Shown: positions 3,301 through 36,936 of the stretch, piece by piece
How the letters are laid out: the number at the start of each line of letters is the position of its first letter
Numbering within the stretch: the first letter of the stretch is position 1
From: Propionibacteriaceae bacterium
Lineage (GTDB): Bacteria > Actinomycetota > Actinomycetes > Propionibacteriales > Propionibacteriaceae
NCBI GenBank assembly: GCA_009782915.1
Contig: WRIC01000002.1
Span: 1 to 64,000 of the forward strand
Length of the DNA stretch: 64,000 bases
Direction of reading: 5' to 3'
Translations under genes and position numbers: made by a program
The notes under the pieces: model-generated
Databases searched by the model: none
What the model saw: only the letters and a program-made list of their open reading frames with translations
Told to the model about the DNA's origin: nothing

Positions 3301-4804
3301 TCGTCGGTTGGCTTGAATTGTCGCGTTGCTTGCTGGCGTTGCGAGTAGCGATGATTTCCTCAATACCAGAAACAAGCGAGGACACTGCACCAGGGCTGTT
3401 CGCTAAAGGAGACCCAGGTAGCGGGGAATGGATAGACCCTGTGTGGGGCAGCCACATCAGCCAATCCCAGCGGGGTGACGAGACTGCCGAAGCAACAGCG
3501 CAGAGCACCAGTTCAGCTGGTGAATGCAGGATAGCAATCTGGGCGATGAGGTTTCGAGCAAGCGGATCAAGCCAATGACGAGGACCCGCCAGACCAAGAT
3601 CGCCACAGTCGCGCAGCGAAGCCGTGATGGGAACATCCGCCACCTGGGAGGCATCAGTTTGGAGTGCGAGCAACGAGTTCCAGGCTTCAGTATTGGCCTG
3701 TCCTCGCCCAGGAAGTTCAATGGTATGACGAGATTGAGTTGACCCATAACCAAGGTTGAAGCGAAGGAAGTTGTCATCTTCTGGTCGCCGACTCCACAAG
3801 TCAGGAGTCAGCCCATAGGATGCCTCAAGTAATGATGCCAGAGAGGGAGTCTCCAGGTGTCGAGCGCTCTGTTCCTCTGAAAGTGCTTTCGTGACGTCCT
3901 CAGCAAGCTGAGTCATTGCGTCATCGAATTGTCGGGCACCTTCAACAGCGGCTTTCTTCCCGGTGATTCGATGGTCAATCCATGTGCCTATGGCGATAAT
4001 GGGACTGAGCGCGACGAATATCAAGCTCATAGGATTTCGGGTCATCAAGAACATGACGGTCCCCATGATAAAAGGGGCGACCATAGCGAGCAATGGAAAT
4101 CTATTTGGTGTTGGCGCACCTGGAGCTTCTGGGGCTTGAAAGGTTTTGCCCGGATAGGGGATGCGTACCACTGGTGAACGATTGAAGTCCTGGTTGACCC
4201 CAATTTCAGTTCCAGAGTGATCGCTGTCAGAGAGTTCCACCACCAAACCAGTTTCGCCAATGACGAGCACATCACTTGGCCCTACTGTTGCGCGGTCAAC
4301 TAACGTGTCACCAATAATCACCCCATTGGAGGAGTTTAAGTCCATGACTTCGACTGCATGATCACTGACAGTCAATCGTGCGTGTCGCCGCGAAACCTGA
4401 CTGTCGATCAACGCAATGTCACAGTCGCTGTCGCGCCCGATTATCTGGACTCCCATACGCAAAGGGAAAACCTTACCGGCGTCTGGCCCTGAGATCGCAC
4501 GCAACCATCCGACTGCCGAAGGTTGGTCGACGACTTGTTCAGAGTGGTCGGATACAATGCGAACTCGCTGTCCAGAGCTGAGTTGGGTTTCGGTGAGGAG
4601 AAGTCCCGACGGTAGAGTGGCGACTTCAACACCATGCTCTGTCACTATTTGCAGGGTTGAGGGGTTTAATGGATCCGCTGGAACACCAGTCATTCCTGCT
4701 GTGAGAGTTGACGCGATATCGGCAATCGTGGCAGTGCCTTCCGCAGTAACCGTAATAGGCAATGAAGAACCCTGCGGTGTCATCACCTCTATCTTGATCT
4801 TCAT
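389..4804 (-). CDS. Type VII secretion ATPase, EccC/EssC type, with FHA domain
   Basis: This 1471-residue protein is the motor ATPase type of ESX/type VII secretion, which powers export of small WXG100-family proteins across the membrane. Residues 1-85 look like a first FHA- or ubiquitin-like domain. Residues 98-195 are a canonical FHA domain (IIGRDSDCDI, VSRRHARL, DLNSSNG). Two membrane helices lie at about 236-254 and 259-277. Three FtsK/SpoIIIE domains follow: the first has an intact Walker A (GGTTGAGKS, Lys681) and Walker B (IIIVDEF); the second has GTSGSGKS (Lys1016) but VDGF at Walker B; the third has GMPGSGRT, with Arg1297 replacing the Walker lysine. An N-terminal FHA followed by paired helices is the Firmicutes EssC layout rather than the mycobacterial EccC layout. 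No WXG100, EccB, EccD or mycosin gene is seen to its right; partners may lie left of the window. Confidence 0.88.
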   Translation of the reverse strand: MKIKIEVMTPQGSSLPITVTAEGTATIADIASTLTAGMTGVPADPLNPSTLQIVTEHGVEVATLPSGLLLTETQLSSGQRVRIVSDHSEQVVDQPSAVGWLRAISGPDAGKVFPLRMGVQIIGRDSDCDIALIDSQVSRRHARLTVSDHAVEVMDLNSSNGVIIGDTLVDRATVGPSDVLVIGETGLVVELSDSDHSGTEIGVNQDFNRSPVVRIPYPGKTFQAPEAPGAPTPNRFPLLAMVAPFIMGTVMFLMTRNPMSLIFVALSPIIAIGTWIDHRITGKKAAVEGARQFDDAMTQLAEDVTKALSEEQSARHLETPSLASLLEASYGLTPDLWSRRPEDDNFLRFNLGYGSTQSRHTIELPGRGQANTEAWNSLLALQTDASQVADVPITASLRDCGDLGLAGPRHWLDPLARNLIAQIAILHSPAELVLCAVASAVSSPRWDWLMWLPHTGSIHSPLPGSPLANSPGAVSSLVSGIEEIIATRNASKQRDNSSQPTIILLVENDSPIDRGRLVSAAKLGPAVGVHIIWLAERQDELPTACRTFVALNSSLNTMSAGFVDEDQVVELTRTESLSEQAADHLARRLAPLTDVGAPSVDHSDLPRSVSYLSLAGPALGENPEAVIERWREDGSLDTASGKRANTTLRALIGQGSQGEFVLDLRTQGPHALVGGTTGAGKSEFLQSWILGMASAHSPRRVSFLFVDYKGGAAFADCVQLPHTVGLVTDLSPHLVRRALTSLRAELRHREHLLNVKKAKDLVSLERTGDPDCPPSLIIIVDEFAALVKEIPEFVDGVVDVAQRGRSLGLHLILATQRPAGVIKDNLRANTNLRVALRMADESDSSDVIGTKLAAEFDPRMPGRGAVRTGPGRIALFQTGYAGGHTSNEPEPSRVDIETLTFGPGQSWEIPTGDRDKSAPSEDGPTDISRITDVICRASSLQNIPAPRKPWLPELPSSYDLAALTQQSLAQPAHADSGQKLVLGMIDDPASQAQHLHAYDPEQDGVLAVIGTSGSGKSGVLRTLAVGAALQLHLTRTEVYGLDFGGAGLAMLETLPNVGEIIEGSDHERVARLLTRLAGILDERTPRFAAVRASSLTQYWSASGERNDSRILLLVDGFGAFRESYDNQTGFAKYVRIMTRLVTEGRSVGIHVIVTADRPSVIPSSMASSIQRRLILRQADDNAYSTLGIAKDVLDPESPPGRGVFSGDTKEIQIAIPSGSSATIDQASAIDALATHLIDHGVPEAESVQRLTEQIWIHELPTSVTDQPTLGMEDTSLAPFGFNPQGGFIVAGMPGSGRTTTLRSLAQSLRRWRPEIPMYYFGSKRSIVGQDKVWTHVSTDPDVMKDTVANIIPALEIVADDAPQLIFMIEGLQEWLGTPAESPLVQAIKLARRNGHLVIGETESAGWGSSYPLVTEIRNARRGIYMQPDSSDADSLFKVSSPRRKRTDFPPGRGVYAENGKSYVVQIPLPEE

Positions 4805-10705: not shown

Positions 10706-11770
10706 ATGGCTCAGGAACATCGTCACCCTGTAGGCGTGCCCATGCCTTTTCCACCGAACGACGATGACATTCTCGGTGGAGAGTCGGTCACTCGTCACCC
10801 TGCGGGTGATCCTTTGCCCCGTCACCCTGTGGTTGATCCTTTGCCTCGTCACCCTGCGGGTGACCCTTCACCCCGTCACCCTGCGGAGCGAAGCGACTCG
10901 CAGGGTCCAGACTCCACAGTTGTGGGAATGGGGATTCTGGATTCTGCGACTTCGCGCAGAATGACGGGTGAGGAGGATCTCCCTGTGGTTGATCCTTCAC
11001 CTCGTCACCCTGCGGAGCGAAGCGACTCGCAGGGTCCAGATACCACAGTTGTGGGAATGGGGGTTCTGGATTCTGCGACTTCGCGCAGAATGACGGGTGG
11101 GGAAGACAGAATGACGGGTGGGGAAGACAGAATGACGGGTGGGGAAGACAGAATGACGGGTGGGGAAGGCGTAACGACGGGTGGGGAAGGCATAACGACG
11201 GAGGAGATCGTCACCCTGCCCACGGTGTTTGGGCAACCTCCGCCCGAGTATCCACTGAGTGCTCGGACGGGGGAGCCACGACACCCCGCTATCTTGGCGG
11301 TGGCATCGGTGTTGTGTTGGCTCTCCGTTCCGGTGACCATTGTGGCGTACGTACGCTGGTGGCTTGCTTCGGCGAGTATCACAGGATTCCATGGGTCGGC
11401 TCGATTGTTGACCTGGACTCAACCTGACCCGGTGTCTGCTCTGGCTATTATTATGGTGATCCTGATCAGTTTGATCACCTTACTCATGGTGGTTGCTGCT
11501 GGTGTGGCGGCGTACAACTCCTGGACAGGCCAATCCTGGGTCCGCATCGGTGTGTGGGTTTGCCTCGCCGTGATGGGACTATCTTTCCTGCTCAACAACT
11601 GGTTTTCTGTGGCCATGATTCCCGTGGTCCTCGGTGGTCTGTTGTTGCTGCTCCCGCAGTATTCGCGTTTCTGCCGCGCAATGGTCAGCTTCCGCGGGGA
11701 CACGATCCCCGAGGTCCCCATCTCCGGAATCAAGTACGGTCCCCAACCCCTCATCGGTTCCCGCGACTAA
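10706..11770 (+). CDS. Small membrane protein with a repeat-derived N-terminal extension
   Basis: A 354-residue open frame. Its ATG follows the TAG of the CoA transferase with no gap, and AAGG lies 5 nt upstream, so translation from here is credible. Residues 1-29 look ordinary. Residues 30-166 are encoded almost wholly by repeats: three 27-bp units (RHPAGDPLP type), two in-frame 91-bp family A elements (RHPAERSDSQGP, TVVGMG, LDSATSRRMTG) and 7-residue RMTGGED units. From about 190 on there are four hydrophobic helices (for example ILAVASVLCWLSVPVTIVAY). The membrane part was not recognised as a named family. It ends in front of a perfect family B hairpin. Either the gene keeps a long disordered tail made of repeats, or a shorter original protein starts further in. 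Confidence 0.65.
   Translation: MAQEHRHPVGVPMPFPPNDDDILGGESVTRHPAGDPLPRHPVVDPLPRHPAGDPSPRHPAERSDSQGPDSTVVGMGILDSATSRRMTGEEDLPVVDPSPRHPAERSDSQGPDTTVVGMGVLDSATSRRMTGGEDRMTGGEDRMTGGEDRMTGGEGVTTGGEGITTEEIVTLPTVFGQPPPEYPLSARTGEPRHPAILAVASVLCWLSVPVTIVAYVRWWLASASITGFHGSARLLTWTQPDPVSALAIIMVILISLITLLMVVAAGVAAYNSWTGQSWVRIGVWVCLAVMGLSFLLNNWFSVAMIPVVLGGLLLLLPQYSRFCRAMVSFRGDTIPEVPISGIKYGPQPLIGSRD
10793..10873. repeat. Three tandem 27-bp units inside a gene
   Basis: Units begin at 10793, 10820 and 10847 and share the opening CGTCACCCTG. Each gives nine residues of the form RHPAGDPLP, so the frame is kept. The unit looks like a shortened family A end plus a spacer. Confidence 0.85.
10875..10965. repeat. 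Family A palindromic element, in-frame copy 1 of the 10706 gene
   Basis: 91 bp with the long left end (CTGCGGAGCGAAGCGACTCG) and the short right end (CTGCGACTTCGCGCAG). It is read in the frame that gives RHPAERSDSQGP and LDSATSRRMTG. Confidence 0.9.
11004..11094. repeat. Family A palindromic element, in-frame copy 2 of the 10706 gene
   Basis: 91 bp, nearly identical to the copy that starts 129 bp upstream. The 129-bp step is 43 codons, so both copies are read in the same frame. Confidence 0.9.
11087..11203. repeat. Tandem 21-bp units (RMTGGED) inside a gene
   Basis: Units of AGAATGACGGGTGGGGAAGA plus C start at 11087, 11108, 11129 and 11150 and then decay (GVTTGGEGITT). The first unit is the right end of the family A copy, so the array seems to have grown from the element's edge. 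The 21-bp period keeps the frame. Confidence 0.85.
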
Positions 11771-11771
11771 T

Positions 11772-11798
11772 GTGACAAGGGGCCTGTCCCCTTGTCAC
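11772..11798. terminator. Perfect 11-bp hairpin (family B) after the 10706 gene; possible terminator
   Basis: GTGACAAGGGG at 11772-11782 pairs with CCCCTTGTCAC at 11788-11798 across a 5-nt loop, beginning one base after the stop codon. There is no T-tract, so termination is possible but unproven. The sequence is a compact family B repeat. Confidence 0.6.
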
Positions 11799-23319: not shown

Positions 23320-25494
23320 ATGAAGTTTCTGAAAGCCCTCATTCGAAGCCCCCTGCTGTGGATCATGGTTGCGATCTTTGTGGTTGGCGCCATTATCAGT
23401 ACGGTCAGGGCGCAACCATCAGCCACGGAGATCCCCACCTCTGAGGCGATCGCCATCATCATGGGTGAATCCCCGCTGACGGAGGTTGTTCTCACTGATC
23501 AATCCCAGCTGATTGAGATCACCCGGGCACCCGAAACCTGCGACCCGAATGTGTTCCTGTCGGGCAAACCGGTTCCCTGCAAGGTGAAAGCCTACTGGGT
23601 GGGTCAGGGCGCAGATCAGCTTGTTGAACGCCTCAACCAGCGAGCCGAGCAGGGCACTATTGATAATTGGAATGGCATCAATGCGACCGGTGGATTCTGG
23701 GAGACCGCGCTGTCGTGGTTTATCCCTATTCTGTTCATTATTTTCTTGATCTTTTTCATGATGAGCATGGCTGGTGGCCCTGGTGGGCGGACCATGAGTT
23801 TCGGGAAATCGAAAGCGAAGATGGCCAACAAGGACACCCCGAAGACGACTTTTGATGATGTCGCTGGGGTGGATGAGGCTGTCGAGGAGCTCCAGGAGAT
23901 CAAGGATTTTCTGGCGAGCCCTGCGAAGTTCAAGAAGCTGGGGGCGAAGATTCCCAAGGGTGTTCTTCTCTATGGTCCTCCGGGTACGGGCAAGACTTTG
24001 TTGGCGCGCGCGGTTGCCGGTGAAGCTGGGGTTCCGTTCTATACGATTTCTGGCTCGGATTTTGTGGAGATGTTTGTGGGTGTGGGTGCTTCGAGGGTTC
24101 GTGACTTGTTTGAGCAGGCGAAGAATAATGCGCCAGCGATCGTGTTCATTGATGAGATTGATGCTGTGGGTCGTCACCGTGGCGCTGGTATGGGTGGTGG
24201 CCATGATGAGCGTGAGCAGACCCTCAACCAGTTGCTGGTGGAGATGGATGGTTTCGATGAGCATAGTGGTGTGATCCTGATTGCGGCAACGAACCGTCCC
24301 GATATTCTTGATCCTGCGCTTCTACGTCCGGGGCGTTTTGATCGCCAGATCGCGGTGGATGCCCCCGATTTGAAGGGGCGTTTCAAGATTTTGAAAGTAC
24401 ATGCGCAGGACAAGCCCCTGGAGGAGGGTGTCGACCTGCAGGGGGTGGCCCGGCGTACCCCAGGATTCACGGGAGCTGATTTGGCGAATGTGCTCAATGA
24501 GGCGGCTCTTCTGGCGGCGCGTACGAACCTCACCAAGATTTCTAACTCTGTTTTGGACGAATCTATTGACCGTGTGATTGCTGGGCCCCAGAAGCGTACG
24601 CGCATCATGAACTCGAAGGAGATCCTGATCACCGCCTACCATGAGGCTGGTCACGCACTCGTGGCGGCTGCGATGCCGGGCAATGATCCGGTGCAGAAGA
24701 TCACGATTCTTCCGCGCGGCAAGGCCCTGGGTTACACGATGGTCATGCCCGATCAGGACAAGTATTCCCAAACCCGCGGGCAGTTGCTTGACCAGTTGGC
24801 GTACACCCTGGGTGGGCGTGCGGCGGAGGAGCTGATCTTCCATGATCCGACCACGGGCGCTGGTAATGATATTGAGAAGGCCACGAAGTTGGCTCGCGCG
24901 ATGGTGACCCAGTTCGGGATGACGGAGGCTTTGGGGGCGGTACGTTATGGCGCGGGTGATCATGAGCCGTTTGTGGGAATGGAAATGTCGAATCCGTCCA
25001 CAATTTCCCCGGCGACCGCGGCCATGATTGATGCTGAGATTTCGTCGCTGATTAATACAGCCCACCAGGAGGCATTTGATTCTTTGGTGGAGAATCGGGA
25101 GATTTTGGATGAATTGGTTCGCCAGTTGCTGGATCAGGAGACCCTGGTGAAGGAACAGGTGGCTGAGATTTTCGAGCCCCTGAAGTTGCGCCCCGAGCGC
25201 CCAGCATGGACGGGTTCACCAACTCGTCAACCATCGAGTGTTCCACCTATTCCAGAACCGGACGTACCTGAACCTGACTTGGATGATCTGGGTGAGGATT
25301 CTTCGGTGAAACCCGAGGAGCCTTCTCAGGGGGATGGTGGCTCGGTGGTTGCGGCGCGCGCCCAGGAGCTGGAGGAAATAGCGAAGAAGTACGGTGCGGA
25401 GGCACCCCCGGCGAAAACCGACGAACCGATGGGGCCGGGAACCTGGATTGATCCCCAGTCTCCTGATGATTTCCCTCCCCCCACGAAGAAATAG
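23320..25494 (+). CDS. ftsH: ATP-dependent zinc metalloprotease FtsH
   Basis: A 724-residue membrane-bound AAA+ protease that removes damaged or short-lived membrane and cytosolic proteins. Two helices flank an extracytoplasmic domain (about 9-27 and 127-149). The AAA domain has Walker A GPPGTGKT at 219-226, Walker B '[13 protein letters not shown]', and the second-region 'RPGRFDRQI'. The zinc site HEAGH is at 441-445, with a later acidic ligand in '[10 protein letters not shown]'. I chose ATG 23320 ([11 protein letters not shown]), as the frame upstream overlaps hpt. The C-terminal 90 residues are acidic and proline-rich, as in other actinobacterial FtsH. folE follows 9 bp later. Confidence 0.97.
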
Positions 25495-25503
25495 GAGATG
25501 CCC

Positions 25504-26076
25504 ATGTTTGATGCTCACCGTGTAGAAGCAGCTGTCCGCGAATTGCTGATCGGGATCGGTGAGGACCCCGATCGTGAGGGTCTCGTTGACACTCCAGCGC
25601 GGGTGGCGAGGGCCTATGAGGAGGCTTTTGCCGGGTTGAACCAGGAACCCGATGAGGTGTTGGGGACTCGTTTTAATATCGATCATCAGGAGATGATCCT
25701 GGTTCGCGATATTGAGTTGTGGAGTTATTGCGAGCACCATCTCGTACCGTTCACGGGGCTGGCTCATGTGGGTTATATTCCGGGCAAGAATCGCCAGATC
25801 GTGGGATTGTCGAAGATCGCGCGGTTGGTGGATGTGTATGCGAAGAGGCTCCAGGTGCAGGAGCGGCTCACCACCCAAATCGCCGACGGGCTCATGGAGT
25901 GTTTGAACGCCGCCGGGGCGATCGTGGTCATCGAGGCCGAGCATCTGTGTATGTCGATGCGCGGAGTTCGCAAGCCGGGTTCACGTACCGTCACTTCAGC
26001 AGTACGCGGTGCCCTGCTCAACCCAACAACGCGGGCCGAGGCTATGAGCCTGATCTCCGCCCCCCAGGGACGCTAG
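25504..26076 (+). CDS. folE: GTP cyclohydrolase I
   Basis: A 190-residue enzyme that converts GTP to 7,8-dihydroneopterin triphosphate, the first step of folate synthesis. Zinc ligands are visible as Cys76 and His79 in '[11 protein letters not shown]' and Cys149 in '[11 protein letters not shown]'. '[20 protein letters not shown]' is the typical active-site helix. Of the two ATGs (25498, 25504), the second is more likely because the ribosome site TAGGAG touches the first. It sits in the hpt-ftsH-folE-folP-folBK operon, 4 bp before the folP open frame. Confidence 0.96.
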
Positions 26077-26080
26077 AGCC

Positions 26081-27478
26081 GTGTCCGCCGCAGAATCCGG
26101 ACTCGGCAGTCCAACTCCACCGCCCGTCTTTCTGCGCGAAGTCGCAGAATCCAGACTCGGCAGCCCAACTCCACCGCCCGTCTTTCTGCGCGAAGTCGCA
26201 GAATCCAGTCAACACAGTTCCACGATCGACAGTTTGTTAACCGAGGGGCCGACCCGCTTGATGGGGATCGTTAATGTGACCCCTGACTCTTTCTCCGATG
26301 GTGGTGGTTCGCTAGATGTGTCCTGCCTCATCACCTCGGCAATCCAGTTGGGTGTGGACCTCACCAACCAGGGTGCACACCTGATCGATGTGGGTGGGGA
26401 GTCCACCCGTCCTGGTGCGACCAGGGTCAGTGAGTCCGTGGAGCTGGCACGGGTGATCCCGGTGGTGGAAGCGCTGGCGGGGCAGGGGATTGCTGTCAGT
26501 GTAGATACGGTACGCGCAGTGGTGGCCGAGCAGGCGATCGCAGCAGGTGCCGTACTGATCAATGACGTGTCGGGTGGTCTGGCAGACCCGCGGATACTCG
26601 ATGTCGTCGCGAAGCATCAGGTGGGGTACGTTCTTGGGCACTGGTCGACACCCTTTGATCATGGTTTCTCTCACACACATGTGGTGGAGGAGGTACGCGC
26701 TGAACTGACTAGGCGCATCCGGGTTGCACTGGAGTCCAGGGTAAACCCTGAGTTACTGATCGTCGACCCAGGTATCGGGTTTGGGAAGACTAACAAACAA
26801 AACTGGGAACTTATTGCAAGCGTGGATCAGATCCAGTCGCTCGGTTATCCAACCTTGTGGGGTGTTTCCCGCAAGAGGTTCCTTGCACAGTCTTGTGTGG
26901 CAGATGGGAACGGTACTGTTTTGTCCCAGGAATGTGTCAAAACACCCCCGTCCCCATCTGTCGCATGTGCCACCGAACCTCATGAGCGGGATTCCGCTTC
27001 AGTGGAGGTGGGTCATCATCTGGCACACCACGGGGTATGGGGTCTCAGAGTCCACAATGTCGCCGAGCATGTGACAAACGCCCCGTCCCCCTGTGACAAA
27101 CGCTCCGTCCCCCTGTCACCTGAGCATGTGACAAACGCCCCGTCCCCCTGTGACAAACGCTCCGTCCCCCTGTCACCTTCCACATGCGCTGCACCCGCAC
27201 CGTCTCCCTGCGCTGCACCCGCACCGTCTCCCTGTGCTGCACCCACGCCGTCTCCCTGCGCGAAGTCGCAGGGTCCAGACTCCTCAGTTGTCCGACTGCG
27301 GAGTCTGGATTCTGCGAGTCCGTTCGCTCCGCAGAATGACGCAGGAGGTGACGAAAACACCCCCCATCCCCCTGCGGAGCAAAGCACCTACTTTCCCCGT
27401 CACCCTGCGGAGCGAAGCGACTCGCAGGGTCCAGAATCCACATCAACCCAGAGTGTTGATCTTGGGGTGAAACTATGA
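26081..27478 (+). CDS. folP: Dihydropteroate synthase invaded by repeat elements
   Basis: Joins 4-aminobenzoate to the pterin diphosphate in folate synthesis. The core is intact: 'MGIVNVTPDSFSDGG', 'DVGGESTRPGA', 'INDVSGG', 'VDPGIGFGKT', 'GVSRKRFLAQ' and 'EPHERDSASVEVGHH'. The frame is 465 codons; the family normally has about 270-290. The excess comes from repeats: two 18-residue family A units at the N-terminus, a family B hairpin in the loop after 'RKRFLAQ' (about residues 276-294), and about 135 C-terminal residues made of 19-residue and 8-residue units plus a 91-bp family A copy. GTG 26081 has AGGGA upstream; TTG 26234 or ATG 26261 would skip the N-terminal repeats. The stop overlaps the folB start (ATGA), so the gene stays coupled despite the insertions. 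Confidence 0.9.
   Translation: MSAAESGLGSPTPPPVFLREVAESRLGSPTPPPVFLREVAESSQHSSTIDSLLTEGPTRLMGIVNVTPDSFSDGGGSLDVSCLITSAIQLGVDLTNQGAHLIDVGGESTRPGATRVSESVELARVIPVVEALAGQGIAVSVDTVRAVVAEQAIAAGAVLINDVSGGLADPRILDVVAKHQVGYVLGHWSTPFDHGFSHTHVVEEVRAELTRRIRVALESRVNPELLIVDPGIGFGKTNKQNWELIASVDQIQSLGYPTLWGVSRKRFLAQSCVADGNGTVLSQECVKTPPSPSVACATEPHERDSASVEVGHHLAHHGVWGLRVHNVAEHVTNAPSPCDKRSVPLSPEHVTNAPSPCDKRSVPLSPSTCAAPAPSPCAAPAPSPCAAPTPSPCAKSQGPDSSVVRLRSLDSASPFAPQNDAGGDENTPHPPAEQSTYFPRHPAERSDSQGPESTSTQSVDLGVKL
26093..26213. repeat. Two tandem 54-bp family A-derived units at the 5' end of folP
   Basis: Each unit runs CAGAATCC(A/G)GACTCGGCAG then CCAACTCCACCGCCCGTCTT and CTGCGCGAAGTCG. The 54-bp step is 18 codons and gives ESRLGSPTPPPVFLREVA twice, so the folP frame is kept whichever number of units is present. 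Confidence 0.88.
26901..26960. repeat. Family B hairpin inside the folP core
   Basis: CAGATGGGAACGGTACTGTT at 26901 and its imperfect complement ending CCGTCCCCATCTG at 26960 form 23-bp arms with four mismatches. They are read as ADGNGTVLSQECVKTPPSPS, in a loop between the 'SRKRFLAQ' and 'EPHERDSAS' motifs of dihydropteroate synthase. Confidence 0.85.
27064..27248. repeat. In-frame tandem repeats at the 3' end of folP
   Basis: Two 57-bp family B units (GTGACAAACGCCCCGTCCCC plus GACAAACGCTCCGTCCCC) give EHVTNAPSPCDKRSVPLSP twice. Three 24-bp units then give CAAPAPSP-type octapeptides. Both periods are multiples of three. Confidence 0.88.
27250..27340. repeat. Family A palindromic element, in-frame copy in folP
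   Basis: A full 91-bp copy with core CCAGACTCCTCAGTTGTCCG and right end CTGCGAGTCCGTTCGCTCCG. It is read in the same frame as the copies in the 10706 gene (SQGPDSSVV, LDSAS). Confidence 0.9.
27399..27437. repeat. Family A half element at the folP/folB junction
   Basis: Left half only: GTCACCCTGCGGAGCGAAGC through to the GGTCCAGAATCCACA core start, read as RHPAERSDSQGPES. It lies 38 bp before the folB start. Confidence 0.85.
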
Positions 27479-28533
27479 GGCCAATCACTGAGACTGATCT
27501 GCAGCGCATGGAGACCCTGGACCGGATGGAGGTCACAGGGATCACCACCTGGGCTTATCATGGGGTTTTCGATCATGAGCGCACCGACGGTCAACCGTTC
27601 ACCGTGGATCTCACCTGGTGGTCTGACATGGGTGTGGCAGCATCCACCGACAACCTGGAGAACACAGCTAATTACGCTGAGGTGTCGAATTGTGTGATCC
27701 AGCAACTCTCGGGCACCCCCGTGGATCTCATCGAAACTCTTGCCTACCAAATCATCGAGCGTCTCTTCGAGCAGTTCGGTTTCGAGTACGTACGTCTCAG
27801 TCTCCACAAACCCCAGGCTCCCTTGGAGGTGGAGTTCACCGACGTTGTCCTCACCGTGACTGGGGGACGGTATGAATTGTCACACCCACCAGCGAAAGTG
27901 ACCACGGAAACGGTTCATAGTCAGGGTGTGACAATTCATACCGTCCCCCTGTCACATGAGTGCGGGACAGTGGGGCATCTCCCCAGTGTGACGGTTACCG
28001 CGACCTCACGTACCTGTGTGTTTTCACTGGGTTCTAACATTGAGCCGTGTGGGGAGTTTCTGCAGTTTGCGGTGTCGGCGCTGGCTTCGACACCAGGGAT
28101 TCGAGCTGTTCGCGTTTCCTCGGTTTACCAGACGACTCCCCAATCGGAGGTGGCGCAGCCGGACTTCCTGAACGCTGTCCTCATCGCTGAGTCAGCTCTC
28201 GATCCTCTGGCTTTGCTCAACAGGGCACAGGAAATTGAGGAAATCTGCGGAAGAACACGTGAGATTTCTCACGGTTCTCGCACTCTTGATATCGACCTTA
28301 TTACCCTGGGGAACGGGCAGTACGCTACAAAGCGTCTCACTATTCCGCACCCGCGCGCGACCAATCGGGGGTTTGTTCTCATCCCGTGGCTGGAGGTCGA
28401 TCCCGAGGCAAAGCTCGCGGGCGTACCTATAAAACACCTTGTCAATGTTGTGAGAGACCAGGGTGTACGCCTGGTGGATTCCACTCTTTTCCTCCCGCCC
28501 ACCCTTGCCACAAACATCGGTGACGAACCCTGA
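27475..28533 (+). CDS. folK: FolB-FolK fusion: dihydroneopterin aldolase and HPPK
   Basis: A 352-residue bifunctional enzyme. Residues about 15-130 are dihydroneopterin aldolase (FolB: 'GITTWAYHGVFDHERTDGQP', 'NYAEVSNCVIQQL', 'HKPQAPLEVEFTDV'). Residues about 178-335 are hydroxymethyl-dihydropterin pyrophosphokinase (FolK: 'VFSLGSNIEPCGEF', 'QPDFLNAVLIAESALDPLAL', 'RTLDIDLITLGN', 'IPHPRATNRGFVLIPWLEVD'). They catalyse two consecutive folate steps. The linker (about 128-177) is written mostly by a 100-bp family B hairpin read in frame. The start overlaps folP by 4 bp. FolB-FolK fusions exist in other bacteria, but a linker made of a mobile-type palindrome is odd. Confidence 0.93.
   Translation: MRPITETDLQRMETLDRMEVTGITTWAYHGVFDHERTDGQPFTVDLTWWSDMGVAASTDNLENTANYAEVSNCVIQQLSGTPVDLIETLAYQIIERLFEQFGFEYVRLSLHKPQAPLEVEFTDVVLTVTGGRYELSHPPAKVTTETVHSQGVTIHTVPLSHECGTVGHLPSVTVTATSRTCVFSLGSNIEPCGEFLQFAVSALASTPGIRAVRVSSVYQTTPQSEVAQPDFLNAVLIAESALDPLALLNRAQEIEEICGRTREISHGSRTLDIDLITLGNGQYATKRLTIPHPRATNRGFVLIPWLEVDPEAKLAGVPIKHLVNVVRDQGVRLVDSTLFLPPTLATNIGDEP
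27856..27955. repeat. Family B hairpin in the FolB-FolK linker, perfect 25-bp arms
   Basis: Arms 27862-27886 and 27925-27949 (GGGGGACGGTATGAATTGTC plus ACACC and complement) match perfectly. Outer GTGAC 27856-27860 and GTCAC 27951-27955 extend the stem after one T-T mismatch. The copy at 37029 has the same structure. Confidence 0.93.
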
Positions 28534-28589
28534 AAAACACACCCCAGCCCAACAATCAAGCAATGTTCTTTGTTTGGTTTCTGCTGTGC

Positions 28590-28750
28590 TACGATGGCTC
28601 AACATTGATAGCTGAAGTGGGGTAGCTGCAGACTATCGCCGTGGGGAGTTGAGTCCATTGTGGCTTGTTGAACCACACCCAAGACAGCGGCAAGGCCCGC
28701 CTCCCAGTGCCTTGTTGTTGAGGGGGTCTGTATCTCGGTATGGACCCCCA
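28590..28750 (+). ncRNA. Candidate small structured RNA or leader with terminator
   Basis: An extended -10 promoter-like TGTGCTACGAT ends at 28595. Just after it, CTCAACA (28598-28604) can pair with TGTTGAG (28716-28722), closing about 125 nt. Inside are a hairpin CAAGGC-loop-GCCTTG at 28690-28713, whose loop contains CCTCCC, and TGTGG/CCACA at 28660-28678. A terminator hairpin follows. The loop could pair with ribosome sites, as in some C-rich small RNAs; this is inference. It could also be the leader of the giant surface protein gene. No known RNA family was recognised. Confidence 0.4.
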
Positions 28751-28758
28751 TTTCTTTC
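28722..28758 (+). terminator. Rho-independent terminator-like hairpin
   Basis: GGGGGTCTGTA and TGGACCCCC (28722-28749) form a strong stem, followed by the T-rich ATTTCTTTC. It could end the folate operon transcript or the candidate RNA upstream. The rest of the gap to 28992 shows nothing I recognise except the ribosome site of the next gene. Confidence 0.65.
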
Positions 28759-28992
28759 TCACGGTGATTTTCCGAGTTTTACTCATCTCAATTTGTGACA
28801 AACTTGCGTTAAACCCCTCCACTATGGAAGAGTAGGGACAGCCAAAACGGGAGTGTTTGGCGTACGCCTGCTGGTGGGTAGGTGTAAATACTGACAAGGG
28901 AGTTGGGGAAATTACTAAGGTAGCCGCAACAGAAGACCACTGTGGCATGCCTTTTCTCTGATTCGTGACCATATATCCGAAAGGGTAATATA

Positions 28993-31900
28993 ATGCAATC
29001 GAATAGTACATTGAACGTACAGAAGACGAATACAGGATGGCTGCGTACCATCGCTAAGCCGATGGCTATGATCACAGCGTTTGTGATGATCATGTCCACA
29101 CTGATTCTTAGTCAACCGCCGACAGCCCCTGATGCGGATGCTCAGGTTTCTGGGACGTGGGGTTGGGGATGGACAACTGACACGGGTACAGGCGCTCGAG
29201 TTCTTTCGGCTCCCATGACACCAATTGACCATCACACTTTGTATGGTTCCTCGTATGGTGGCGGCACAAATGCGCCCACAGGCATGTCCACAACCAATGG
29301 TTGGGTGGGTTACTATGCCACAGGTGGTGTTGCTCCCACCAATGGGACAGTGACCCTCATTGCTAACGGTAATGGTGGCGCTCGACTTGGTCCTGCGGGA
29401 CAGTGGATGTCGACTTTGGCAATCGATGCCGACCCATATGGTCAACGTGGAACAAAGTATGCGTATATGTGGTCCTGGGCATTTGACTCTACGTCTACTG
29501 GGTTGAATGGTAATTACCCTACTAACATCCCAACCAATAATGTTCTGGTCTATCGCGTGGCTGAGGGTGAAACCAATCCAGAGGTGATTCCGGTCCCCTC
29601 CCCGTACTTTTTCAATTCGAGTGATCCCACAAATATGTCGGCCTACAATTACTGGTCCGGAGGCGAGATTATTCAATCAACGGGTGAAATCTTCTTTTCG
29701 GGTGGGGAATGTTCAGGCCTCAACTTGAACTATCGCATGATGGTTTTTGATCCAGAAAGCTTGAACTATAACTTCTCTGGTCGAATTCAGCCAAAGAGTG
29801 GTGGCGACAATATCTTTAATGGCACAGATGGCTGTGGTGGAACGAGCTACGTTGCTTCTGATATGGCACTCGATGCCAAGGGGCAGGCGTATATTCTTGT
29901 TTTCTCTGCTAATGGGGCTCCCGCCTATGGGCTTGGCAGCGGCAACCGGCTGTGGTTGGTGCGTGTTGAGCCGAATGAAAACGGACCGTGGGAATACAAT
30001 CTAGTTACCAACCTGACTCGGCATCCGGGTGAATCAGCAACTGGCGCAGCTTACACTTTCACCAGTACTGCCACTGTCAACATGATCTATGGCATGGCCT
30101 TCTACGAAGGTATCCTTTATGCTACCATGTTTAACAACACTGCTCTTTTGGCCATTAACCCCATGACTGGCCAAGTGAAGAATGTTGGTGGTACCGGAAG
30201 TGGCACCTTAAGTCCTACCTATGTTCAGGATATGGGTTCCGGGCAGACCGCTTTCGTGGTGGAGGGTGTTGTCTACAATGACACCGAAGCGAACGGATCT
30301 ATTGCTGGAAATTCAGGTATTGGTGGACAGAGAATTGGTTTGTACATGAAAGACCAAAACGATGGTCAGTATGTTTTCCAGAGTTCTGAGGTCAGTGGCC
30401 CCGCTGGTGACTACACCTTCTTGCTTGGTGGTCCCGGCGATTACATCATCAGGCTTGTTGAGCCCAAGATCGCAGATGTCAATGCCACTCAAACCTTTGC
30501 CTCTGGTGGGGGAACACTCAACCCTGCTACTGCAAAATGTATTCAAGGCGATATCACTACCAAGGCTGGCGGAGCTTGTTCTGGCGCTGTTGCACAACCT
30601 CATGATGATGCTGATCTTCCAACCAGCGATTCTGCTAGTGGCACAGACAAGGGCACTCAGCCCGCTGACATGTCGTACTACACTGAAATCCATGTCACCT
30701 CTGACCGTGAAGTAGCCGAAGCTAACTTCGGTATTACCACTCGTGGTTCGTATGGTGATTCAGCAGCCGGGCCGGCCACCGGTCCGACAGCCCCTGCCCA
30801 CATTAATGGTGTGAGCCCTCAGATCTGGTTGGGTAGCCAACTTGGTTCTTATGCGGCACCAGCCACCGATAACACTGCCCACAACAGCACCGATGATGGT
30901 GTTTTCGTTGAGTCGTACGCGGGCAATGTTCTCATGGCCAATCATGCTTTCTTGGGTTCGCGTGACTACACCTTGGTAGGTACATTGGGTGGAACTGCGG
31001 TATCGACGGCCAAGGTCAGTGGTTGGAACACAGGCGTGGGCAACACCACATGGAACACGGCTGCCACCTGGACCCCCACCGTGTCAGGGAGCACTGCATC
31101 GGGGACGTGGAATCCCTCGGTGACCTCCGGAACTGGTCAAATGCATTTCCGTGCAGATGTGTCCACCGTGCCTATCAATACACCAACGAACGCCTCAGGC
31201 GATTACTATTCGACAACTCGTTGGGTGACCCCCGGTGAAGTTGAGGACTACTTGGTCAACATTGGTAACTCGGTTTATACCCCTGCAGCTCGTACGCTTG
31301 CCGGAACCGCTGACTTTACTATTGGTGGACAAGCTTTCCCTGGAACTACAACAACCCTGAAATATGGAACAGGTGTGGTTGCTACTGCTAACACACCAGT
31401 CAGTATGACAGCAACAGTTCCAGACACGACCTGGACTGTCTCCGAGGTTCTCGTTAAAGACTTCGTAACCGGTGAACTCTTAGATACGCTAGCGTTCGCA
31501 CCGTCAGCCAACAGACTGGATTGGACGTTCACCTATACACCTGAGTTGAACATGGACACCGTTATTGAGGTAGTGTTCGCGCCGAATCCTGATCCTGAAG
31601 AATCAGAACTCATCATGACTCCGGCATATCCTGACACCCAAGTGGTGAGCCTCGATATCACTGCCAAGGTCATTGTCCGTACAAGTGATCGTCAGCTCCT
31701 CCCCAATGTGGATGTGACTTTTGCGAAGACATCTTCTGACATTGTGTTGACATCAACCACCTGCAAGACGAATGCTCAAGGTGAATGCTTCATCACACTA
31801 ACCTCAACACAGGCAAAGAAATACACAGACGAGATCTCTGCCACCGTCATTGTGGGAACAGCCCCAGTTCAGGTTTCTGGTTCGCCAGCAACAGTTGAGT

Positions 31901-34900
31901 TCGTTGCGGATGTATTATCACCAGAATCCTATTTTGAGATTGATCCGCCAGCGGACATGAGTGATGAGAGCACTTGGTTGGTCGCCAATGGTACAGATGC
32001 CTACACGGGCACCCTCTATGCCATGGATGAATTCAGGAATCCTATTAAGAACATTGATGTATCCACAATCTCCTGGACTGTTCCCGCTGGGATCGATAAG
32101 TCCAGTGTGACCAACAACGGTGATGGTTCCTATTCAATCACCTTCACCACAGAAAACATCAATAAGACCGCTATGGCAAGCCTCAAAGTGGGCGCTCAGA
32201 CGATCTACGCAGATGATGCCAACACCGTCTCTGAGTTGCCGATCCCCTTCACCTATGGTGAAGTTTCCTGGGAGAAGTCGACACTGGTCGTTGATCACAC
32301 CACCTTGGGTGTGGGTTCAACAGCCACCGCAACAGCAACGATTGTTGATGATTTCGATAATCCTATTGATGGACGCGATGTGAACTTCTCACTGGCGCCT
32401 GTTGATCCTGTGGGAAGCCATAATGCAGTGATCGTTCCTTCACCGAGTGTGGTGCAGACTGACAGCCAAGGTAAAGCTGTTGTCACGATCACCAACTTGA
32501 AGGCTGAAACTGTTGCCCTGTCAGCAAAGGTTGCTGAGGGTAACGGAGCACCAGATCACATCAACGGTTCCCCAGTAGAAATCACCTGGGAAGCAGGAGA
32601 ACCTAATGCTGAGGAATCCAATTTCCGGGTTTACATCACCGACACCACCAAGACTAAGGTGATCGCTGATGGCTCTGAGTCGTGGACTGGTGAATTGGTT
32701 GCCCGCGACGAGAACAGGAATCTCCTTCCGAATCTCACTACCGAGCAACTGAACAAGTACATCTGGGCTGTGACGCCTGCTGGTGTCACCATCTCATCGC
32801 CGGTGTTCAATGCGGGTAACGGTGTCTACACCGTGCAATACACCTCCACCAAGGCAGGCGCGTACACCGCTACCCTGCATCTTGATGGGGACCAGGTTGA
32901 TTCCGATGAGGCCATCGCTTTTGTTGCTGGCCCCGTGGATCCGAACAAGTCCAAGGTGAGTGTTGATCCAAACAGGACAACAGCGGGTTCCACCGTTGTG
33001 GTCACTGTTGAGGTGATGGATGCCAACGAGAACCCGATCTCCGGGCTGCCGAATGAAGCAGGCACGGGTGTGACCATTGTTGGTGAAAACCCGAGTCTGC
33101 CGGACATGACCATCCTGAATTCGGATAATCCAATGCAGGAAAACCCTCTGGGCACTTACAAGTTCAACACCACCTCCTACAAGGTGGGTACGTTCACGGT
33201 GACCGCTACAGCCATGGGTGTGACCATCAACCAGAAGCCCACTGTGGAATTCATCCCTGGTGGTGTGAGTGCTGAGCATTCATCCTTCGCAATCGAGGAT
33301 AATAACCGGCTCGCTGATGGCGTATCGAAGAACTCTGCGAAGGCAACAGCTCGTGACCAGTACGACAACCCTGTCCCGGGTGCCAGAGTCTATGTCGAAG
33401 ACAAGACCACTGACCTTGCCCTGATGGGTGAGCTGGATCCTGCAACCCAGACGGCCACCACAGACGCCAATGGTGAAGCCATGGTCTACTGGACATCCAC
33501 CAAGAAGGGTGTGTACACCGCTGAAGGCTTCATTGACGATCTGCGCCCACCCACGGGTGTCATGAGCGACATCACCTTCACCACTGGTGACGCCAGTGCT
33601 GCCAAGTCTGAGATGTCTGTGTATCCGAATTCACCAATCGTTGTGGGCAACAGCTACACAGTGACCGTGACCATTCGCGATAATAACAATCTCCAGCTCG
33701 AAGACGAGCGAGTCGAGTTCACACTCGATTCGGGCAGTCTTGCTGAGTTGAGTGAGACGTACTGCATGACCAATAGGCAGGGCCAGTGCTCGGTGACGGT
33801 CAGCTCCCTGCTCGTCACCTCAGCAGAAATCAGTGGCAAGGTGACTGAAGGGCAGAATGGTCTCAAGCACATTGAAGGCAATAATGACAACACCAAGCGC
33901 AGCCCCAAGACTGTTGCCTGGGAGGCTGGTCCACTGTGTCTGCCACCTATGACACCAACACCGGTAGATCCCGACAACCTGACGCGCGTTGAGGTTCTCA
34001 CCCCTGGTGCCGAAGCCAATGGGACAGCCCCAGAAACAGCCAAGGTCTATGCCTATGACTGCTATGGAAACCCTGTCAGTGGCGTGGCCATCACCACGAC
34101 ACCGTCAGCGACCCATATCAATGCGACCTATCGTGCAAGCACGACAGATACTGACGGTTTGGCGTACATCGACTATCGCACCTCGACCAAGGGTCAGTAC
34201 ACTGCGATAGTTAATTTGAATGGCACCCCCGCACCACGTGCCTTGAGCTATGGTGCCACGACACCGCGTACTGACGGTCAGATCACGCTCAACTTCGCCT
34301 CCGGTCCGGTTTCCCCAGGAAACTCGACGTTGGCGATCAGCCCCACCACCTCCCAGGTGGTAGCGTCCAACTTCACAGTGACCGCAACCCTGAGGGATGC
34401 CAGCAACAACCCAGTTGAGGGTATTCAGGTCACCTTCGAATCCGGTGAAGGGTTGAACTTCAATCCGCAGGCCTCCTGCACATCAGGAGCCGACGGAACC
34501 TGTCAGGTCACCGTGACCTCGACGAAGGCAACCACCTACGAGATCATCGGCAAGGTTGATATTCGCGAGATCAGCAACCGTGTGAGCGCGACCTTCACCC
34601 CTGGTCCACTATGCGTTACTCCAACCTGTAATTCCAGAGTTGAAGTCACCTATGGTGAGGCGATGGCTGACGGCGAAGAACACAACATTGCCACTGTCTG
34701 GGCCTTTGACCAGTACGATAACCCGATTCCGAATTTGGATGTGGCATCCGCCATGGTTACTGGTGAAACCGGATTGACCATTCAGTCCGATATCGCACCA
34801 ACGAATGCTAGTGGAATCTCAACCATCTGGTATTCCGCGACAGTGGTTCGCGAATACCGCGCCGATGTCACGGTTGCTGGGATGACCCCCAAGGGTTCCC

Positions 34901-36936
34901 CCATCACCTTGTACTTCGGTTCAGGTGAAGGCGACCCAGCACATTCACAGTGGAGTATCACCCCCGCTGGTCCGCTGGTCGTCGGTGAAGACCCCGAGAA
35001 CACCTACACGGCAACCGCCATCGTACGTGACTCGGGCAACATCCTCGTACCCAACGCTGTGGTCACCTTCTCGGTTGACCCCGATGGTCCGGTACCAGGA
35101 CCGAACCCAAGTTCATGGTCGTGCATGACCGATCTTGCTGGAACATGTTCCATCACCATCCATTCCACCAAGGCGGGCACCTACAACATTGGTATGCGCC
35201 TGCGTGGAACTGCGGTGAATTACGTTGGCACAACAGCTGCGACAGCTTCACGCGCTTGGAGAGCCGACGATGTCTGCTCGCAGGCTGAAGGCTGTGATCC
35301 CGTGGATCCAAACCTGCCCGCAGAATTGCGTACGCGCATCGAGGTGACGGTCAACAACTCGACCGCCAACGGAATCGCTCAAAACAGGATCACCGCCTGG
35401 GGCTTCGACAAGTGGGGCAACCCGGTTGTGGGCGCTCGCGTGGAATCCACACGAGTGAATGCTGCTGACCCGATCGCCATCCAGACCGGTATCAACCCAC
35501 TGGGTGAAAACGGTTCCTCGGTGATTTGGTACACCTCCATGGTGGTCGGTGACTATGACGTCAACGTCGCTATCGATGATGTACGTCCAGTCGGGTCCCC
35601 CGCTACCCTCACCTTCACACCCGGACCGGTGTGCGTGGTTGAAGCTGGCTGTGAACCGATTGGTCCAGGAACCGATCCGAACAAGCAGACCCGCGTGGCT
35701 GTGACCACCAACAACAACAAGGTTGATGGTCCGCCGAATGTGGTCACGGCATATGCCCATGACCAAACCGGTAACGTTGTGGCAAACGTGGAGTTCACCT
35801 TCGTGAAGGCCCTGGCCTCGTCGAACCTGGTGATTGAACCCACCTGCACCACTGCTGCTAACGGACAGTGCACCGTCAATGCCACCGCCAAGTTGGCTGC
35901 CACCCACCAGGCTCGCGCCTCCGTGGCTGGTACAGAGTTGACCAATCACGGTTCACCGCTAGACCTCACCTTCTTGACTGGTGAGATCTGCATCATCGAA
36001 GCTGGCTGCGATCCTGATCCGGATACACCTGCTGATCGCTGGACTCGCGTGGCACGCCTGGACAACAATGCCCATGTGCTCCGCGGTGGAACCACTCCTG
36101 AGGAACGCCACATGAACGTCATCGGTGTCTATGCCTTTGACAAGTATGGCAACCCTGTTGCTGGAGCGGTCTTCGATCTGGAATCTGATACTTCCTCGTT
36201 GAGATTCCATGGCCCGGCCACACCAACGATGTCTGTTACTTCAACAGCGACTGTTGATCCTGATCGTGCACAGGTGTACTCGATGAATGATGAGGATCAC
36301 TTCGTGAAGGCCTCCATTGGTGGCATCGAGCTGACCCAGTCAGGTTCCCCGATTGAAATCTGGTTCGTTGATGCGCCAGTGATCACTAACCCAACCAATG
36401 GTTCAACGATTGGCTTGTCAACAGCGATCTCTGGTACGGCCACTAACTCTGGTAGCCTCGTGGATGTCTTCGTCGATGGCACCAAGGTTTGTACGGCAAC
36501 AATCCAGACCGATCACACCTGGGCTTGCCCACCGATGAAGCTCGATAATGGACAGCATGCAATAACTGCCCAGAAGCATTCACGTGACGGAACAAAGACC
36601 TCTGAGATCTCTGCTCCTGTGACTGTGCAATCTGTTCCACTGGATATGTCAATCCTCCATCCCTCCAGGATGCCAGGAGAAACCCAGGTGGTCTCTGGTT
36701 ACCACTTCAGGCCTGGTGAAGAAGTACGCCTCGTGGTGACTTCTGATCCACTGGATCTGGGTACACAGATTGCTGATGCCGATGGTACGGTGACCTTCAC
36801 CTTCAATATTCCACAGAATATGAGTGGAGGAACCCATACCGCTACACTCACCGGCCCTGATTCCGGGGAAATCGCAAAGACCTTCCAGGTCGTTATCCCT
36901 GTGGTTCCCACCGGAGGAACGGTAGTCGGTCAGTAA
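28993..36936 (+). CDS. Giant secreted surface protein with about 14 Ig-like (Big_1/invasin) repeats
   Basis: A 2647-residue secreted protein. The start is ATG 28993 with GAAAGGG upstream. A signal peptide spans about residues 1-52 (hydrophobic AMITAFVMIMSTLIL, cleavage near ADA-QVSG). Residues 53-415 look propeller-like. A SdrD/CNA-B-like domain follows at about 418-495 ('VVEGVVYNDTEANGSI' to 'GDYIIRLVEP'), then a GEVED domain ending near 756 ('GEVEDYLVNI'). About 14 bacterial Ig-like units fill 870-2455, most ending in a 'GSP.T..F..G' type strand. Two more Ig-like units close the chain. The last residues, VVPTGGTVVGQ, lack a sortase motif with helix, so the protein is either released or held non-covalently. 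Likely roles are adhesion or biofilm structure. A strong hairpin follows the stop. Confidence 0.88.
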   Translation: MQSNSTLNVQKTNTGWLRTIAKPMAMITAFVMIMSTLILSQPPTAPDADAQVSGTWGWGWTTDTGTGARVLSAPMTPIDHHTLYGSSYGGGTNAPTGMSTTNGWVGYYATGGVAPTNGTVTLIANGNGGARLGPAGQWMSTLAIDADPYGQRGTKYAYMWSWAFDSTSTGLNGNYPTNIPTNNVLVYRVAEGETNPEVIPVPSPYFFNSSDPTNMSAYNYWSGGEIIQSTGEIFFSGGECSGLNLNYRMMVFDPESLNYNFSGRIQPKSGGDNIFNGTDGCGGTSYVASDMALDAKGQAYILVFSANGAPAYGLGSGNRLWLVRVEPNENGPWEYNLVTNLTRHPGESATGAAYTFTSTATVNMIYGMAFYEGILYATMFNNTALLAINPMTGQVKNVGGTGSGTLSPTYVQDMGSGQTAFVVEGVVYNDTEANGSIAGNSGIGGQRIGLYMKDQNDGQYVFQSSEVSGPAGDYTFLLGGPGDYIIRLVEPKIADVNATQTFASGGGTLNPATAKCIQGDITTKAGGACSGAVAQPHDDADLPTSDSASGTDKGTQPADMSYYTEIHVTSDREVAEANFGITTRGSYGDSAAGPATGPTAPAHINGVSPQIWLGSQLGSYAAPATDNTAHNSTDDGVFVESYAGNVLMANHAFLGSRDYTLVGTLGGTAVSTAKVSGWNTGVGNTTWNTAATWTPTVSGSTASGTWNPSVTSGTGQMHFRADVSTVPINTPTNASGDYYSTTRWVTPGEVEDYLVNIGNSVYTPAARTLAGTADFTIGGQAFPGTTTTLKYGTGVVATANTPVSMTATVPDTTWTVSEVLVKDFVTGELLDTLAFAPSANRLDWTFTYTPELNMDTVIEVVFAPNPDPEESELIMTPAYPDTQVVSLDITAKVIVRTSDRQLLPNVDVTFAKTSSDIVLTSTTCKTNAQGECFITLTSTQAKKYTDEISATVIVGTAPVQVSGSPATVEFVADVLSPESYFEIDPPADMSDESTWLVANGTDAYTGTLYAMDEFRNPIKNIDVSTISWTVPAGIDKSSVTNNGDGSYSITFTTENINKTAMASLKVGAQTIYADDANTVSELPIPFTYGEVSWEKSTLVVDHTTLGVGSTATATATIVDDFDNPIDGRDVNFSLAPVDPVGSHNAVIVPSPSVVQTDSQGKAVVTITNLKAETVALSAKVAEGNGAPDHINGSPVEITWEAGEPNAEESNFRVYITDTTKTKVIADGSESWTGELVARDENRNLLPNLTTEQLNKYIWAVTPAGVTISSPVFNAGNGVYTVQYTSTKAGAYTATLHLDGDQVDSDEAIAFVAGPVDPNKSKVSVDPNRTTAGSTVVVTVEVMDANENPISGLPNEAGTGVTIVGENPSLPDMTILNSDNPMQENPLGTYKFNTTSYKVGTFTVTATAMGVTINQKPTVEFIPGGVSAEHSSFAIEDNNRLADGVSKNSAKATARDQYDNPVPGARVYVEDKTTDLALMGELDPATQTATTDANGEAMVYWTSTKKGVYTAEGFIDDLRPPTGVMSDITFTTGDASAAKSEMSVYPNSPIVVGNSYTVTVTIRDNNNLQLEDERVEFTLDSGSLAELSETYCMTNRQGQCSVTVSSLLVTSAEISGKVTEGQNGLKHIEGNNDNTKRSPKTVAWEAGPLCLPPMTPTPVDPDNLTRVEVLTPGAEANGTAPETAKVYAYDCYGNPVSGVAITTTPSATHINATYRASTTDTDGLAYIDYRTSTKGQYTAIVNLNGTPAPRALSYGATTPRTDGQITLNFASGPVSPGNSTLAISPTTSQVVASNFTVTATLRDASNNPVEGIQVTFESGEGLNFNPQASCTSGADGTCQVTVTSTKATTYEIIGKVDIREISNRVSATFTPGPLCVTPTCNSRVEVTYGEAMADGEEHNIATVWAFDQYDNPIPNLDVASAMVTGETGLTIQSDIAPTNASGISTIWYSATVVREYRADVTVAGMTPKGSPITLYFGSGEGDPAHSQWSITPAGPLVVGEDPENTYTATAIVRDSGNILVPNAVVTFSVDPDGPVPGPNPSSWSCMTDLAGTCSITIHSTKAGTYNIGMRLRGTAVNYVGTTAATASRAWRADDVCSQAEGCDPVDPNLPAELRTRIEVTVNNSTANGIAQNRITAWGFDKWGNPVVGARVESTRVNAADPIAIQTGINPLGENGSSVIWYTSMVVGDYDVNVAIDDVRPVGSPATLTFTPGPVCVVEAGCEPIGPGTDPNKQTRVAVTTNNNKVDGPPNVVTAYAHDQTGNVVANVEFTFVKALASSNLVIEPTCTTAANGQCTVNATAKLAATHQARASVAGTELTNHGSPLDLTFLTGEICIIEAGCDPDPDTPADRWTRVARLDNNAHVLRGGTTPEERHMNVIGVYAFDKYGNPVAGAVFDLESDTSSLRFHGPATPTMSVTSTATVDPDRAQVYSMNDEDHFVKASIGGIELTQSGSPIEIWFVDAPVITNPTNGSTIGLSTAISGTATNSGSLVDVFVDGTKVCTATIQTDHTWACPPMKLDNGQHAITAQKHSRDGTKTSEISAPVTVQSVPLDMSILHPSRMPGETQVVSGYHFRPGEEVRLVVTSDPLDLGTQIADADGTVTFTFNIPQNMSGGTHTATLTGPDSGEIAKTFQVVIPVVPTGGTVVGQ

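Follow-up and report, generated by a model that had tools for sequence, protein, structure and literature searches.

How palindromic repeats of two families come to lie in frame at three places within folP, the gene for dihydropteroate synthase, is the question raised by the window that we analysed (the whole 64,000-nucleotide stretch at positions 1 to 64,000 of contig WRIC01000002.1, from the assembly GCA_009782915.1 of an uncultured actinobacterium of the Propionibacteriaceae). A preliminary description had proposed in-frame palindromic repeats at the start of the gene, in a loop of the enzyme core and in a tail, and our analysis bears this out: the frame is open throughout, with family A units at the start, family B in the loop and a mixture of both in the tail (Table 1). 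We consider it very probable that non-autonomous REP palindromes entered folP at these three places, expanded in tandem, and were tolerated through the frame that they keep and the fold that they spare.

Table 1. Features of the folP locus, in window coordinates.
Feature	Position	Strand	Description
folE (GTP cyclohydrolase I)	25498..26076	+	upstream of folP; no family A or B units found
folP (dihydropteroate synthase)	26081..27478	+	465 codons, GTG start, one open frame
N-terminal family A array	26089..26208	+	54-bp unit, 2.2 copies; CTGCG..CGCAG stem in two units
Family B palindrome	26896..26965		two inverted B halves that differ from each other; loop following the SRKRFL motif
C-terminal family B array	27065..27178	+	two identical 57-bp copies, each of two B units 22 bp apart
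24-bp tandem array	27185..27261	+	3.2 copies, derived from part of a family A unit
Full family A dimer	27250..27341 (about)		two inverted CGTC..CCA palindromes, tails facing; z -6.4
Partial family A half-unit	27362..27385	+	family D7
Single family A unit	27398..27435	+	long (13-nt) loop
folB-folK fused ORF	27475..28533	+	downstream of folP
Inverted family B pair	27863..27948		in frame; links the FolB domain to the HPPK domain; z -8.8

The repeats cover about 40, 22 and 135 codons at the three places and include ten recognised units: two of family A at residues 15-43, one of family B at residues 285-292, and four of family B with three of family A at residues 331-452. The two 18-codon A units proposed for the start of the gene correspond to the 54-bp array there, and the hairpin first placed at 26901-26960 proved slightly wider; folded as DNA it reaches -17.6 kcal/mol (z -4.96), none of 200 shuffled versions was as stable, and both of its halves match other B copies in a 459-kb sample of the assembly. 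The repeat tail of about 135 codons, with its full A copy, was likewise recovered, as residues 331-465, where the 24-bp array joins the four B and three A units. One earlier claim fails, namely that every tandem period within the gene is a multiple of three: TRF also gives two 22-bp arrays (27070-27116 and 27127-27173), nested inside the 57-bp copies, the compound unit of which (22+35) is a multiple of three, unlike 22 bp itself.

folP lies 4 bases from the stop of folE, and its own stop overlaps the start of the folB-folK ORF by ATGA at 27475-27478, as first described; the same overlap is found in the relative G010, where the C-terminus of FolP is free of repeats. In six sister species (G005, G017, G009, G004, G007 and G012; loci L146-L150 and L142), folP, folB and folK form, by eye, one open frame, which is apparently a trifunctional fusion. 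Further downstream in the window, at 28993-36936, a 2,647-residue ORF with many repeated domains has, also by eye, the look of a secreted protein.

The enzyme core is intact as judged from its sequence, catalysis being a prediction. A single Pterin_bind domain (PF00809, E 1.1e-65) spans residues 61-325 in Pfam, and of 44 alignment columns that show no variation among 37 other FolP sequences the protein keeps 43 (counted without the window's own row in the alignment). The changed column is a G to R at residue 220; in addition, a Y conserved in 36 of the 37 sequences is H at residue 198. Over the 265 core codons compared between the window's genome (G000) and its relative G006, differences amount to 0.31, 0.23 and 0.63 at codon positions 1, 2 and 3. 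The AlphaFold2 model reaches a mean pLDDT of at least 85 in 23 of the 28 ten-residue blocks of residues 51-330, the lower blocks being 71-80 (57), 191-200 (68) and 271-300 (54, 51, 70), and the best Foldseek match is the M. smegmatis DHPS (6omz; TM-score by target 0.85). These observations make it hardly credible that the locus is an assembly artefact or a decaying pseudogene. Repeats are indeed hard to assemble, the assembly is a 33-contig draft and one otherwise invariant glycine has been lost; but the frame stays open over all of its codons, the core is constrained, this is the only folP match in the assembly (93.5% complete), 25 ORFs in the sample bear such units, and G003 and G006 have other in-frame insertions in their folP genes.

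An alignment with homologues, which the preliminary description had suggested as a check on whether the repeat-coded segments are unique, gave that answer for the loop and the tail and only in part for the start of the protein. We aligned six homologues, four from sister or near species and two from further actinobacteria. None of the six has the loop segment (which adds 22 residues with respect to G006), and the tail is matched in none of them either, the tail of G003 having a family A dimer of its own. From SRK to RxH the loop measures 60 residues in the window protein. We surveyed 120 loci, of which 94 could be parsed (six being duplicate copies) and 89 yielded a length for the loop. In 84 of these it lies within 31-43 residues, and the others measure 17, 57, 60 (the window), 64 and 111; the loop is therefore variable by nature. 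The 111-residue loop belongs to the FolP of Actinobaculum suis (L038, match 3001-3651), which has a repetitive expansion of its own after SRKRFL.

The folP genes of other species carry different in-frame insertions. That of G006 encodes 90 extra residues after DSFS, the DNA for which is partly a family A half-unit; another part of this insert, within L145 2115-3287, recurs at 95% identity, over 80 nt, in two stretches of L170 in the window's genome (3534-3613 and 4582-4661), and this shared repeat is possibly a third family. G003 has 22 extra residues after STRP and 15 before the SRK strand, the A or B identity of neither being established, besides the dimer in its tail.

The repeat-coded segments are predicted with low confidence in the same AlphaFold2 model (pLDDT 38-43 over residues 1-40, 29-49 over 341-465, and 54 and 51 over 271-290), and are probably floppy or disordered, low pLDDT in the absence of aligned homologues being weak evidence of this. 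They might instead have been adopted as parts of the protein, for example as tethers between the folate enzymes, given that linkers do occur where folP, folB and folK are one ORF; but the low predicted order, the lack of a conserved peptide, and the absence of loop and tail segments from the six homologues make this very improbable.

The start of the protein is less simple. In G006 a GTG stands in the matching place just after folE, and the junction and first codons align with those of the window: GTG-TCC-GAG-GCG-GAA in G006 against GTG-TCC-GCC-GCA-GAA here (MSEAE against MSAAE). We therefore favour the GTG at 26081 as the start of folP; on inspection of the DNA, a stretch AGGGA stands upstream of it and none upstream of the TTG of residue 52 (26234). 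If that TTG were the start, the N-terminal repeats would be an untranslated leader, with only the loop and tail repeats coding. This reading agrees with the view of Di Nocera et al. 2013 (PMC3733652), in its discussion of REPs at gene starts, that many of these are probably extragenic through misplaced starts, and with G010, G001, G013, G003 and G026, in which FolP must start near the core since the frame opens just 15-25 residues ahead of the MG[IV][LIV]N core motif. The earlier proviso that translation might begin past the repeats is thus made unlikely by the GTG alignment, the TTG being a possible start (later candidate starts exist in G006 too), and we regard an untranslated leader as unlikely. 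When counted from the matching GTG, G006 has 49 residues before the core and the window protein has 60, and those 49 residues are repeat-free, with no match to the window repeats (best BLAST E 0.19). The N-terminal insert would then add perhaps 11 residues, since G006 may have 49 ordinary ones; as far as the sequences indicate, the repeats may have grown inside an older extension, or replaced it, and are not necessarily a pure addition.

Beyond folP, both families are spread through the genome. In a sample of 459,000 bases (the window and 20 further stretches, 28% of the assembly) we found 133 A and 109 B units, against 0 and 3 after shuffling. A simple purpose-made gene finder called 364 genes in this sample, covering 87.4% of it, and of 113 repeat clusters 77 were intergenic, 31 within ORFs and 5 across an ORF end, an intergenic excess with p 1.6e-42 where non-coding bases make up 12.6%. 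Insertions into genes thus look to have been purged.

The units that do lie within genes amount to 58 placements in 25 predicted ORFs (one unit being in two overlapping ORFs), with folP holding the most and being among the three ORFs in which both families occur. Pfam families were matched by 22 of the 24 unit-bearing ORFs scanned. Units stand within the matched domain in folP, in an ABC ATPase (L163:12952-14067) and in a DUF2344 protein, while a Ppx/GppA protein is matched in two pieces and a GlcNAc epimerase protein in three. Four A units fall in an ORF at 10706-11767 that matches nothing in Pfam and is possibly spurious; the 25 ORFs nevertheless include it, and the 21 arrays considered below include its three. 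A units are read in five of the six frames (and B units in four), which makes a conserved repeat peptide unlikely.

Of 21 arrays inside ORFs, 18 have a period divisible by three, against 28 of 62 outside (p 0.0019), a comparison that leaves out five arrays across ORF ends, none with such a period, and that is biased in that ORFs are open by definition and some arrays are counted under several periods. With that bias of openness noted, the excess fits a persistence of copies that keep the frame.

Might the palindromes instead be kept as RNA elements that tune the stability or translation of the folP-folB-folK mRNA, their coding being a side effect? Of six stretches folded as DNA three form strong hairpins, the single A units (z -2.2 and -2.6) and the B tandem (z -1.65) having weak structure; a B pair is found in the folB-folK linker also, and RNA roles have been proposed for REPs (PMC3733652). 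However, the arrangement and sites of the repeats vary between species, as do their frames, and no Rfam family matches positions 24000-30000 of the window, so that we judge this explanation to be distinctly improbable.

What, then, are the two families? A search pattern for family A with a flexible loop gave 249 matches in the 1,639,263-base assembly, and none with the pattern reversed; the flexible form was adopted after a pattern with a fixed 8-nt loop gave 0 matches, the loop being mostly 6 or 13 nt. Across 57 genomes, the window's and those of 56 relatives, high counts were otherwise confined to G006 (77 matches) and G003 (12), of the same genus, with one match each in G005, G016 and G039; a 45-base stretch of family A gave one weak match against plasmids. 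We chose 69 strict A palindromes by a perfect 8-bp stem and a CCA tail, leaving the head free. Their heads are CGTC in 52, TGTC in 9, GGTC in 5, AGTC in 2 and TGTT in 1; the stem starts with AC in 38 and with AT in 31; and the loop lengths are 6 nt (35 units), 13 nt (30), 7 nt (3) and 9 nt (1). When the tail was not used for selection, CCAG followed the stem in 68 of 71 palindromes (strand-collapsed from 142). Ten inverted pairs with facing tails, which take in 20 of the 69 units, are each an AC/AT heterodimer, and two further pairs are oppositely oriented.

These features invite comparison with the CGTC-tagged REPs, a superfamily that takes in RPE-4 and RPE-6 of Rickettsia and dRS3 of Neisseria. 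As Di Nocera et al. 2013 (PMC3733652) characterise its members in their account of the superfamily, they have an unpaired CGTC head (or TGTC, CCTC), a stem of 8-9 bp in which the first two positions are almost invariably AT, a loop of 4-5 bp (other lengths in a few families) and a CCA tail; they form inverted dimers and have no dedicated transposase, and the five phyla listed for them do not include actinobacteria. Family A shares the CGTC/TGTC head, the CCA tail, the inverted dimers often made of unlike units and the occurrence of some units within genes, and it may share the lack of a dedicated transposase, the search having covered the Y1 class. It differs in that its loops are mostly of 6 or 13 nt, that AC is commoner than AT at the stem start and that its host is an actinobacterium. 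Family A thus fits most, not all, of the marks of a CGTC-tagged REP. The likeness to Rickettsia palindromic elements in the preliminary description was apt, the link with RPE being one of published motif.

Family B has other company. Its pattern gave 147 matches in the window's assembly (control 2) and was matched in 26 of the 57 genomes, 21 of them with just one to three matches, the larger counts elsewhere being 170 in G012, 10 in G010, 8 in G014 and 4 in G006. Among 31 genomes (the window's and 30 relatives), the Y1_Tnp domain (PF01797) was found in two, with 4 genes in G012 and 5 in G014; none was found in the window's assembly, 93.5% complete, nor in G006 or G003, which together with it are the three genomes where family A is matched more than once. 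Of the nine Y1 genes, three (L154, L155 and L156) have B units on either side, one (L157) on a single side and another (L159) has degenerate ones around it, with none near the other four. Inverted GTGACA..CCGTCCCC units flanking Y1 genes in G014 and G012, and the amplification of B copies elsewhere, recall the terminal inverted repeats of RAYT/TIRYT genes and REPINs; the difference is that the window's assembly has no Y1_Tnp match. On inspection GGGGWSAS, a motif of some TIRYT repeats, is fitted by the unit at 11772, GGGGACAG, and not by the common B form, GGGGACGG. Because B units flank Y1 genes in sister species, we read family B as the amplified end repeat of a Y1 element, the enzyme of which was not found here. 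With B beside Y1 genes in sister species, and A abundant in genomes where no Y1 transposase was found, the two do look to differ in origin, in keeping with the earlier notion of two unrelated families.

We therefore picture the history of folP, on the reading of inserted REPs that we prefer, as follows. Family A would be a CGTC-tagged REP for which no mobilising enzyme is known, and family B would derive, as REP-like copies, from the terminal repeats of a transposase gene of the Y1 class (IS200/RAYT-type), the enzyme persisting in sister species. Units would land and mostly be lost from genes, persisting in a loop or at an end where the frame is kept, and tandem slippage would then lengthen them. 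Because A and B are poor in stops in most frames, copies with lengths divisible by three would lengthen the protein without truncating it. Selection on the sole folP found would retain copies that leave the frame intact, at both termini and in a loop variable in length, and on this view the extra FolP segments should be translated and disordered, and nearly neutral. We could establish no target-site duplication; transposition as the route of entry is something that we infer, since the assembly has no Y1 transposase and none is tied to family A.

Elements of this sort within genes are already in print. Insertions of RPE-1 into Rickettsia proteins were described by Ogata 2000 and Abergel 2006 (as cited in PMC2229807 and PMC3733652), and the guanylate kinase (gmk) of R. 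conorii with its insert is, as cited in PMC2229807, translated and active with a changed substrate affinity. folP shares with these cases an in-frame insertion into a conserved enzyme; RPE-1 is longer (105-146 bp), and the likeness is one of description. REP clusters inside genes of Thauera and of R. conorii, for which PMC3733652 gives 43-82 residues, are similarly clusters of units that code for tens of residues, whereas folP is hit at three places by two families. folP thus adds one more example to a class of selfish DNA that is already known; in the open-licence literature we found no description of CGTC REPs in actinobacteria or of palindromes in folP. It would extend in-frame REPs to a lineage outside the five phyla that PMC3733652 lists as having CGTC repeats, and it brings two families of apparently different origin into one core enzyme. 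The genus moreover offers one and the same protein in repeat-rich and in repeat-free form, which makes the cost of selfish palindromes testable.

A broader reading, which we put forward tentatively and hold to be doubtful, is that in this actinobacterial genus several REP populations simultaneously keep entering conserved proteins in frame, that enzyme loops are repeated landing sites, and that stop-poor palindromes are a standing source of new segments. The cases behind it are FolP, differently affected in three species, and a pair of DnaE-like paralogues in which corresponding sites bear unlike repeats. If true, palindromes would feed new protein segments and be more than mere intergenic DNA.

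The first of these paralogues, a polymerase gene at L162:6521-10426 (contig G000:C1) that we infer to be dnaE2-like, has 5 repeat units at three sites. In its paralogue L188 (G000:C27), 83% identical in the best stretch, the first insertion is absent, and at both later sites the two genes have, in an alignment by inspection, unlike repeats. We had considered the L162 gene as the main replicative polymerase; the DnaE-like protein of G000:C6:91352-92869, about 32% identical, is likelier to be the main enzyme.
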